From: Cladochytrium replicatum
Lineage: Eukaryota > Chytridiomycota > Chytridiomycetes > Cladochytriales > Cladochytriaceae
DNA: 64,000 nt
Assembly (NCBI GenBank): GCA_025526935.1
Contig: JAHLKD010000079.1
Coordinates: 219,245-283,244 of the forward strand
Direction of reading: 5' to 3'
The position numbers were made by a program, and so were the translations under genes. The notes under the pieces are model-generated. The model saw only the letters and a program-made list of their open reading frames with translations, did not search any database and had not been told where the DNA came from. Below, piece after piece: positions 24,213 through 34,888 of this stretch. Within the stretch, counting starts at the first letter, position 1, and every line of letters starts with the position of its first letter.

Positions 24213-24284
24213 GGGCTCGACCGGGGATTGAACCCAGGACCTCTCGTACCCAAAACGAGAATCGTACCACTAGACCATCGAGCC
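24213..24284 (-). tRNA. tRNA-Pro(TGG)
   Basis: 72 nt cloverleaf on the minus strand. Acceptor GGCTCGA pairs with TCGAGCC, discriminator C. The anticodon arm is CTCGT-TTTGGGT-ACGAG with anticodon TGG (reads CCA codons). The T loop GGGTTCAATCCCC contains a normal B box. No intron and no encoded CCA. The nearest retroelement begins 9 bases upstream of the 5' end. Confidence 0.95.
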
Positions 24285-24293
24285 GTGCATTTA

Positions 24294-24590
24294 CTCATAG
24301 TGGCTCAGTCGGTACGAATGCGACTTTTCGAAGCTAAACTCCGCGGTTCGAATCCTATAGGGGACTGGATTCGAATTTCCTACGAAATATATCTCTCGCA
24401 ATATCGTGTCACGTGCAAGTACCGCGCCACACCTCCTTCGATTCGCCATTGCCTTCGCTCCTCTTTCCTACGGCTCGCACGGCTCCCCAAGTACTGAAGA
24501 TTCCAAATCTTGGTTGAAGTACACGTGGGTGACATGTACTGATTAAGCATTGTCAATACATGTTATAACATTCAAAAAAAAAAAAAAAAA
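24294..24590 (+). mobile_element. tRNA-derived SINE, copy 1
   Basis: About 297 bp ending in A17. The head has a perfect Pol III A box (TGGCTCAGTCGG, 24301) and B box (GGTTCGAATCC). The body is unique. The 3' third contains TTTCCTACGGCTCGCACGGC and ends ATGTTATAACATTC-poly(A), resembling the LINE B 3' end. Other copies are at 33230-33526 and 59313-59612. TTAC before the head and again after the A tail may be a 4-bp target duplication. The head does not fold as a clean tRNA. Confidence 0.9.
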
Positions 24591-24591
24591 T

Positions 24592-24717
24592 TACTCTCTC
24601 ACTCTCTCACTCTCTCACTCTCTCACTCTCTCACTCTCTCACTCTCTCACTCTCTCACTCTCTCACTCTCTCACTCTCTCACTCTCTCACTCTCTCTCTC
24701 TCTCTCTCTCTCTCTCA
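24592..24717. repeat. Pyrimidine microsatellite forming the LINE A leader
   Basis: About thirteen ACTCTCTC octamers followed by (TC)n, ending a few bases before the ORF1 ATG at 24723. The second LINE A copy has a plain (CT)n tract at the same place (54278-54320). Confidence 0.9.
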
Positions 24718-24722
24718 AATCA

Positions 24723-33229: not shown

Positions 33230-33526
33230 TTTTTTTTTTTTTTTTTGAATGTTATAACATGTATTGACAATGCTTAATCAGTACATGTCACCCACGTGTA
33301 CTTCAACCAAGATTTGGAATCTTCAGTACTTGGGGAGCCGTGCGAGCCGTAGGAAAGAGGAGCGAAGGCAATGGCGAATCGAAGGAGGTGTGGCGCGGTA
33401 CTTGCACGTGACACGATATTGCGAGAGATATATTTCGTAGGAAATTCGAATCCAGTCCCCTATAGGATTCGAACCGCGGAGTTTAGCTTCGAAAAGTCGC
33501 ATTCGTACCGACTGAGCCACTATGAG
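33230..33526 (-). mobile_element. tRNA-derived SINE, copy 2
   Basis: Minus-strand copy of the SINE at 24294-24590, with the same A and B boxes and the same 3' tail and poly(A) (33230-33246). Its 5' end is at about 33526, next to the poly(A) tail of the ORF1-only element. By eye it is almost identical to copy 1. Confidence 0.92.
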
Positions 33527-33528
33527 AA

Positions 33529-34807
33529 TTTTTTTTTTTTTTTTTTTTTTTTTGAACAATATTATTTATTTATTTGCACATACAATGCATAACAATAAAC
33601 AACACCCAAAGTGCCTTACAAGATGGTCGTGGACCAGCACATAGGGAAGCGCGCAAGTCGGAGGGCAAAGCGAAATAGAAATCAGAGATCTTAAAAACTC
33701 ATTCCTGTGACTACCCGTCAGGCTCTGCTCAGGTGTCAAATACAGGTGAGGGATAAAGAAAAGAAAGAACACTCAACATTGTGAAGAATATAACAGCAAA
33801 TCACTGGGTCAAACGAAGGTCAGAAGCTGAGGTCATCGAAGGGGCATATAATCGAGCGAGATGCAACAGCGTAGAAAGATGAGACGGATCAACAAGATTG
33901 CGGTAGAACAATGCAACAGCTGGCTCAGACGTAGTAGCAATCGCCTTGGCACTTCGATGGAGCAGAGAGTCATAGCGTTGCAGAGAGTCGGAACTGTCAG
34001 AATACGAAGGAGGGGACACATCCAAATCAGTGATTTCTCGACCAGGTATGTGTTTGCGGATCAGATCAGCAGCATAAGAACGACAAAGAAATTCAACAGA
34101 ATCAGAGCCGAGAAATGAGATGTAGCGGATGCCATGGTAAGCGGTATACGGAAGATCTTTGCGAAGCAACACACGAAGGTCCCTGATTGGGCGACGAGTA
34201 AAACCAGAAAATCGGAGAGTAGTGAAGGATTCGGCACATTCTTTGACAAATTTGAAGCTTCTATGCGAGGTCGGCAGGTCGTCCAAGAGGAAGTGCGAAC
34301 AAGTAAGCTCATTCATGGAATCATTGGTGGCAGGTGATGAGGCTGGAGATGGGGCTGAGCAGGTGGCTGAACTGTCAAGAGTGGTGGTGGCAGTGTGGGT
34401 GGCATCAGGGGCAGTGCTGGTGGCAGTGTTGGTGGCACCAAGGGCACAGGTGGCAGCGACGTGTAAATGTGGAGGAGAAGCAGGGAGAGTTGGAAGCAGA
34501 TCAGGGTTGAGGGTAGCAGGGGAGAGAGCAGAAAGGGAGCGCAATAGAAGTGCAGAGCACTTTAGGAAGGTCAGGGAACTTGCAAAGTCAGAAGGCAGAG
34601 CAGAGGCAAGTGAGAGAGATAAGGGATGAGCAGAGGAGTAGCCCCTGCTAGTCAGCAGACTGCTCAGAAGAGAAGCAGGTGAGAGGGTCAATGGAGAGCT
34701 AAGGGAGAGAGGAGCAGAGGTGAAAAGAAGGGCAGCAGGGGTACAAGGCTCACAGTTGCGATGGATAACCGGAGGTGAGGTGCAAATGATCATGGCAGAG
34801 AATGAGA
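33529..34807 (-). mobile_element. ORF1-only non-autonomous LINE with a LINE A 3' tail
   Basis: Poly(A) at 33529-33553. The ~240-bp 3' UTR matches LINE A through CACCTGTxTTTGxCACCT, CTGACGGGTAG, TTCCCTATGTGCTGGTCC and AAGGCACTTTGGGTGTTG to the tail. The only ORF is an ORF1 relative (33801-34793), and there is no endonuclease or reverse transcriptase. The 5' leader is short and pyrimidine-rich (CCTTCTCATTCTCTGCC), ending about 9 bases before tRNA-Trp. This looks like a complete element rather than a truncation, because the 5' leader and the start codon are present. Confidence 0.8.
33801..34793 (-). CDS. ORF1-like protein of the non-autonomous element (330 aa)
   Basis: Begins at ATG 34793. The N-terminal ~165 residues are Ser/Pro/Ala/Thr-rich low complexity. 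From residue ~190 it aligns with LINE A and LINE B ORF1: FTTLRFSGFTRRPIRDLRVL, then IRYISFLGSDSVEFLC against IRHISFIGRNTAEFIC and IRHISFVGRNIASFIC, then an ISLR-type C-terminal helix pair. There is no CCHC zinc knuckle. By analogy with other LINE ORF1 proteins it should bind RNA; the domain itself I do not recognise. The intact frame, despite the lack of ORF2, suggests selection or recent origin. Confidence 0.75.
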   Translation of the reverse strand: MIICTSPPVIHRNCEPCTPAALLFTSAPLSLSSPLTLSPASLLSSLLTSRGYSSAHPLSLSLASALPSDFASSLTFLKCSALLLRSLSALSPATLNPDLLPTLPASPPHLHVAATCALGATNTATSTAPDATHTATTTLDSSATCSAPSPASSPATNDSMNELTCSHFLLDDLPTSHRSFKFVKECAESFTTLRFSGFTRRPIRDLRVLLRKDLPYTAYHGIRYISFLGSDSVEFLCRSYAADLIRKHIPGREITDLDVSPPSYSDSSDSLQRYDSLLHRSAKAIATTSEPAVALFYRNLVDPSHLSTLLHLARLYAPSMTSASDLRLTQ

Positions 34808-34816
34808 AGGAAAGCA

Positions 34817-34888
34817 GATCCCTTGGCGCAACGGTAGCGCGTCTGACTCCAGATCAGAAGGTTAAGTGTTCAAATCACTTAGGGGTCA
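34817..34888 (+). tRNA. tRNA-Trp(CCA)
   Basis: 72 nt. Acceptor GATCCCT pairs with AGGGGTC (one T-G wobble), discriminator A. The D arm is GGCGCAACGGTAGCGC, the anticodon arm TCTGA-CTCCAGA-TCAGA with anticodon CCA. The T arm is AAGTG-TTCAAAT-CACTT, so the B box is slightly weak (GTTCAAATC). No intron. Confidence 0.95.

Follow-up and report, generated by a model that had tools for sequence, protein, structure and literature searches.

In the fungus Cladochytrium replicatum, two LINEs (LINE A and LINE B), a SINE and an ORF1-only element (O1E) share one landing place, which lies directly upstream of tRNA genes. Among the sampled tRNA genes with a readable flank, 62/64 had an element within 300 nt of their 5' end and only two had none. 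All 62 nearest elements turned their 5' end toward the tRNA (62/62), in agreement with the polarity that the original prediction had proposed. This pattern of spacing and polarity is far beyond chance.

The sample was drawn from the 50.5 Mb assembly (198 contigs) which holds the window, that is, the whole 64,000-nt stretch of DNA that was analysed. A covariance search, in which 63 of 2278 candidates were scored, listed 62 tRNA genes; together with the three tRNA genes of the window, which stand outside this list, there were 65. For 64 of them the 5' flank could be read over 100 nt or more, and the one with 11 nt was excluded. The gap between tRNA and element was -1 to 18 nt in 45/64 genes with a mode of 9 nt (12 cases), and it exceeded 20 nt in 17/62, with 8 at 21-50 nt and 9 farther. 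Three of these nine most distant cases have another tRNA intervening. The spacing of about 9 bp had been expected to be fixed; nine is indeed the mode, but genome-wide the gaps form a narrow distribution and not a constant. Since 29 of the 45 near elements are 5'-truncated and 16 have complete 5' ends, the landing place is independent of the sequence at the element's end. These 45 elements form 43 distinct junctions, next to 16 distinct tRNA 5' 11-mers, and no strong base consensus was found in their spacers. The distinct 3' flanks of the tRNAs at loci L001-L068 served as a control. Here we observed an element within 150 nt in 0/41 and within 300 nt in 2/41.

The window contains three targeted tRNA genes, all called by ARAGORN and by Rfam RF00005 (52-68 bits). 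The element had been expected about 9-10 bases from their 5' ends, and the gap is exactly 9 nt in 3/3, each time with the 5' end of the element toward the tRNA. The tRNA-Pro gene (TGG; 24213..24284, minus strand) is separated by the 9-nt spacer GTGCATTTA (24285..24293) from SINE copy 1 (24294..24590, plus strand, poly(A) at 24574-24590). Between this poly(A) and LINE A copy 1 stands TTA (24591..24593), which is the same as the end of the spacer and is a possible 3-nt target-site duplication. LINE A copy 1 (24594..29631, plus strand) has a CT-rich 5' end, ORF1, ORF2 with endonuclease and reverse transcriptase, and poly(A); its ORF1 carries a premature stop at 24999-25001 and its ORF2 is 20 codons shorter than that of copy 2. 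The tRNA-Trp gene (CCA; 34817..34888, plus strand) is preceded by the 9-nt spacer TGCTTTCCT (34808..34816) and then, going outward on the minus strand, by O1E (33529..34807; a single ORF related to LINE A ORF1), SINE copy 2 (33230..33526; its 297 nt match the complement of 24294-24590 at 100%) and a pair of 5'-truncated LINE B copies, the second copy at 31248..33229 and, as the deepest identified element, the one at 29831..31247. At the tRNA-Gly gene (TCC; 54196..54267, minus strand) the 9-nt spacer TGTGATGAG (54268..54276) leads to LINE A copy 2 (54277..59309, plus strand), which consists of (CT)n, ORF1 (54331-55752), ORF2 (55752-59063) and poly(A), with an ORF1/ORF2 overlap of TAATG. It is followed on the plus strand by SINE copy 3 (59313..59612, start taken at CTCATAG) and by the 5'-truncated LINE B copy 3 (59613..64000), which reaches the end of the window and of the contig. 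On each side all elements have the same polarity and stand one behind the other, each poly(A) abutting the next 5' end, and the predicted head-to-tail convoys were thereby recovered. A full LINE adjoining the tRNA was found at tRNA-Gly only, while tRNA-Pro adjoins a SINE and tRNA-Trp adjoins O1E.

LINE A and LINE B both contain RVT_1 and Exo_endo_phos domains (Pfam) and, with a reverse transcriptase, an apurinic-type endonuclease and poly(A) ends, they match LINEs in these features. No RNase H family was found in LINE A ORF2 (Pfam, E 0.01). The 5' ends of the two LINEs are (CT)n stretches of about a dozen to more than 200 nt (54277-54320, L041, L057). The SINE is too short to encode a protein. 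It resembles tRNA-type SINEs in its A and B boxes at the 5' side, its LINE-like 3' part and its poly(A). In copy 1 the A box TGGCTCAGTCGG lies at 24301-24312 and the B box GGTTCGAATCC at 24345-24355, both assigned by the box consensus. Its 3' half is in part LINE B-like, with 33 nt at 94% to the LINE B 3' end, and the 3' end of O1E has 82% identity to that of LINE A over 209 nt. These shared 3' sequences suggest that LINE B mobilises the SINE and that LINE A mobilises O1E. The ORF1 sequences are related and their shared core is predicted to be RRM-like. A protein search returned six weak, unnamed matches. In vertebrates, HAL1-type half-LINEs and LINE-tailed SINEs are ORF1-only elements and SINEs that carry the 3' sequence of a partner LINE, and the ORF1-only element and the SINE described here resemble them in sharing 3' sequence with a LINE. 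Those vertebrate elements are not known to be aimed at tRNA genes.

The same picture was obtained from the element side. We took as the SINE census the 55 exact copies of the SINE-start 23-mer, with SINEs of a variant first base outside the count. Their 5' neighbours were a tRNA in 24 cases, a tRNA-like sequence in 2 (L026, L035), the poly(A) of another element in head-to-tail position in 25 and a LINE in head-to-head position in 4. Not one of the 55 exact SINE 5' ends lay away from a tRNA or tRNA-like gene or the end of another element, so mapping of element ends against tRNA genes, as the original prediction had proposed, gave 55/55 on this sample. The 24 SINEs that stand directly at a tRNA have a median gap of 9 nt (range 6 to 23) and cover 14 isotypes. 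SINEs with a different first base were read at four loci (L163-L166), all head-to-tail. The LINE A search gave 235 candidates, and the best 30 of the 40 listed comprise 12 at a tRNA, 1 at a tRNA-like sequence (L066), 14 head-to-tail and 3 head-to-head with a SINE, the last three being events of the SINE census. Thirteen O1E copies sampled of 40 listed were divided between tRNAs (7) and head-to-tail positions (6), and at two of the latter (L176, L180) some tens of nucleotides intervene. For LINE B, the 19 copies sampled of 40 listed stood at a tRNA (4), at tRNA remnants (2) or head-to-tail (12; at L183 and L199 judged from distance), with 1 unclassed. A genome in which most copies lie away from tRNAs, with random spacing and orientation, is thus not what the samples contain (62/64 tRNAs, one polarity). 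The tRNA-like sequences at L026 (~1420-1490) and L066 (~2185-2260) are related to each other, have a B-box-like motif and elements near their 5' side, and received no ARAGORN or Rfam call. At L196 (G000:C4), an O1E poly(A) and LINE B are separated by 14 nt of a tRNA-Ile-like 5' end and a 9-nt spacer, which look like what is left of a lost tRNA gene.

The four head-to-head pairs among the 55 exact SINEs represent three independent events, as two of them (C24 and C18) look like duplicates. Since the SINE has A and B boxes of its own, it may itself have been the target in these pairs. The expectation, set before the data were seen, was that the original tRNA of the SINE should stand behind the poly(A) of the head-to-head LINE, and the displaced tRNA was found there in 2/3 independent events. 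In C24 the LINE A poly(A) is followed by GGA and then by tRNA-Phe. In C80 there are two LINE B elements, and the poly(A) of the outer one abuts tRNA-Leu. The LINEs of C24 and C80 were read at their ends, and the distances fit single copies. The displaced tRNA was not seen on the far side that was read in C127, which is rearranged. The distance from the LINE start to the SINE A box is 16 nt in C24 and C127 and 18 nt in C80. The A box of a tRNA starts at nucleotide 8, and 16 nt therefore matches the tRNA case, in which a 9-nt gap is followed by 7 nt of the tRNA. The A/B-box promoter of the SINE is thus probably also targeted by LINEs, and it is probably a second kind of target beside tRNA genes. 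We also considered that the head-to-head pairs are plain inverted insertions at a tRNA, and found this less likely for the three independent cases since 0/62 tRNA-nearest elements are inverted. The loci L031 (C24) and L032 (C18) have the same SINE/LINE A head-to-head pair and a different sequence past the 3' end of LINE A, which suggests that dispersed copies have recombined.

We consider it highly probable that LINE A, LINE B, the SINE and O1E all arrive by target-primed insertion at the initiation site of Pol III promoters with A and B boxes. In this model, a common integration machinery of LINE A and LINE B, which are related to each other, would find assembled Pol III initiation complexes on A/B-box promoters; that the initiation complex is the target is inferred from the position of the elements. 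Contact with TFIIIB is a plausible step by analogy with TRE5-A of D. discoideum, whose ORF1 protein is reported to contact TFIIIB (PMC5911963). The element polarity indicates, for target-primed reverse transcription, that the tRNA-sense strand nicked upstream would serve as the cDNA primer. The nick would thus fall on the non-template (tRNA-sense) strand, some 9 nt before the start of the mature tRNA and some 16 nt before the A box. Reverse transcription from this nick would leave the poly(A) away from the gene, and the 5' end, whether truncated or intact, would face the gene. Since truncated copies stop at the same place, the junction on the tRNA side would be set by the site. The SINE, with its LINE B-like 3' part, and O1E, with its LINE A-like 3' end, would use the LINE machinery and reach the same landing site. 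The A and B boxes of the SINE would themselves serve as a target and give rise to the rare LINEs that stand head-to-head with a SINE, with their poly(A) against the old tRNA. A more specific version is tentative and, in our judgement, rather doubtful: integration might be linked to the Pol III initiation complex in its open state, where the melted non-template strand would be nicked, and any A/B-box promoter, including that of an earlier SINE, would be a landing pad. If it is true, SINEs are portable targets that create new landing sites for the family, beyond being passengers, and the direction of an insertion reports which of two facing promoters fired.

The range of targets has a limit. No element was found in the 235-327 nt upstream flank of 5S genes (0/8) or of U6 genes over the cut-off (0/2), and targeting of any Pol III gene is therefore unsupported. 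The eight 5S cases are not independent, since their flanks resemble each other, and the result points weakly to A/B-box promoters as the target class. As a rule, 5S and U6 genes do not have the tRNA-type pair of A and B boxes. The ten empty flanks (10/10) would also be expected if the LINE endonuclease read a DNA motif of the tRNA gene, for example the A box, and cut at a fixed distance from it without any transcription factor, and it fits this too that elements stand about equally far from the A box whether the target is a tRNA or a SINE. We regard motif reading as unlikely, however, because spacer bases show no strong consensus, many isotypes are targeted (14 for the 24 SINEs directly at a tRNA) and degenerate tRNA-like genes (L026, L066) are targeted as well. 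Endonucleases of the LINE type usually have little sequence specificity.

Under target-primed insertion at the Pol III start, the site has the gene on one side and the earlier element on the other, so each insertion would go in next to the gene. Later insertions would displace the older elements outward and build the head-to-tail convoys. The original prediction that new insertions are the ones nearest the tRNA agrees with the anatomy in two respects: farther out, each 5' end adjoins the poly(A) of the neighbour on its tRNA side, and in C24 and C80 LINEs stand between the SINE and the tRNA. In most arrays a poly(A) is in direct contact with the 5' end that follows, and this would equally be produced by outward growth, in which new elements enter an existing poly(A) and only the first of them needs the tRNA. 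There is a precedent in Zorro3 of Candida albicans, which targets poly(A) sites (PMC7175516). Outward growth is nevertheless very improbable, given 43 distinct 5' junctions at the 45 tRNA-nearest elements and the LINEs between tRNA and SINE in C24 and C80. The nearest copy is also closer to the reference than the deeper ones in 20/23 convoys, a count that is confounded by family since SINEs dominate the first place. The convoys look like ordered insertion records, while these comparisons are only a weak test of whether their order can be used for dating. Target-site duplications of 0-5 nt were marginal, with P=0.0025 for a lenient boundary and P=0.11 and 0.17 for a strict one.

Two further explanations do without a targeted insertion. 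The surroundings of tRNA genes have been called safe havens for retrotransposons (PMC5911963), and elements could have inserted broadly, with selection removing all copies but the harmless ones beside tRNA genes. We find this barely credible, as it leaves unexplained the polarity (62/62), the 9-nt mode, the empty 3' sides and the SINE ends (55/55). Copying of tRNA genes and elements together as larger blocks is the least probable of all: there are duplicate-like loci (L110/L111, L094/L097, C24/C18) and a SINE-poly(A)-LINE B junction that is the same at window 59594-59640 (C79), G000:C99:98915 and G000:C105:3077, which are probably duplicated blocks, but 43/45 near junctions are distinct and adjoin 16 different tRNA 5' sequences.

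Among known systems, TRE5-A of D. discoideum, according to the passages that describe it, is likewise a LINE with ORF1 and an endonuclease-RT ORF2, lies upstream of tRNA genes and is oriented opposite to them, forms element-element tandems and depends on parts of the Pol III promoter (PMC5911963, PMC5391098); TREs form their tandems without entering each other (PMC5391098). It differs in distance, as TRE5 stands 40-54 bp upstream of tRNA genes in opposite orientation (PMC5911963) compared with the mode of 9 nt here and 45/64 gaps of 18 nt or less. TREs of any kind are given for 61% of D. discoideum tRNA genes (PMC5006619), in contrast to 62/64 sampled tRNAs here. TRE5-A also targets 5S genes, where we observed 0/8, and the passages on it mention no SINE or ORF1-only partner, both of which are present here (PMC5911963, PMC5391098). 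NLTR-A of D. purpureum is a non-LTR element that likewise sits within a few bp of the mature tRNA, on its upstream side; its description gives 2-6 bp, compared with a mode of 9 here, and an RNase H, of which Pfam found none in LINE A ORF2 (PMC5006619). Ty3, Tj1 and DGLT-A are described as inserting right at the Pol III start of tRNA genes or within a few bp of it, but they are LTR elements with an integrase, unlike the poly(A)-tailed non-LTR elements here (PMC5911963, PMC5006619). Dewa of zebrafish is a non-LTR element tied to tRNA genes as well, although the account of it makes it specific to the tRNA-Leu spacer, whereas many isotypes are targeted here (PMC3706591). By this comparison, our elements seem to work like TRE5 and NLTR-A, and we do not claim membership in either because the described spacing or domains differ.

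Tandem-forming LINEs targeted to tRNA genes were thus already known from social amoebae. What is added here is the occupation of nearly every sampled tRNA (62/64), the distance resembling that of a start site, and four families at one site. The choice of targets by fungal retrotransposons, LINEs included, is described as not fully known, with Pol III targeting likely (PMC5911963). Searches of the open-access literature, including the available text of PMC7175516, PMC6875170, PMC5014426 and PMC13269885, turned up no report of tRNA-aimed LINEs in a fungus and none of a SINE promoter as a LINE target. Where a SINE and a tRNA stand opposed with a gap of a few nucleotides, it becomes possible to ask whose promoter decided the direction of insertion, and LINE recognition at Pol III genes becomes testable by the comparison of isolates.

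Several minor observations were made along the way. Directly behind the 3' end of a LINE A, next to a tRNA, lies a U6-like stretch (G000:C66:265138-265226; 34.5 bits, below the cut-off) that may be a U6 retrocopy. At L010 (G000:C152) the convoy includes, behind the SINE poly(A), a tRNA-Val copy that is truncated at its 3' end, carries an A tail and looks like a retrocopied tRNA. The 3' half of a tRNA at L059 carries an A tail as well. Elsewhere in the window, positions 549-6194 contain many diverged repeats about 87 nt apart on the minus strand, which by eye encode ankyrin-like units, and positions 10104-10588 hold a 97-nt tandem repeat of about five units.
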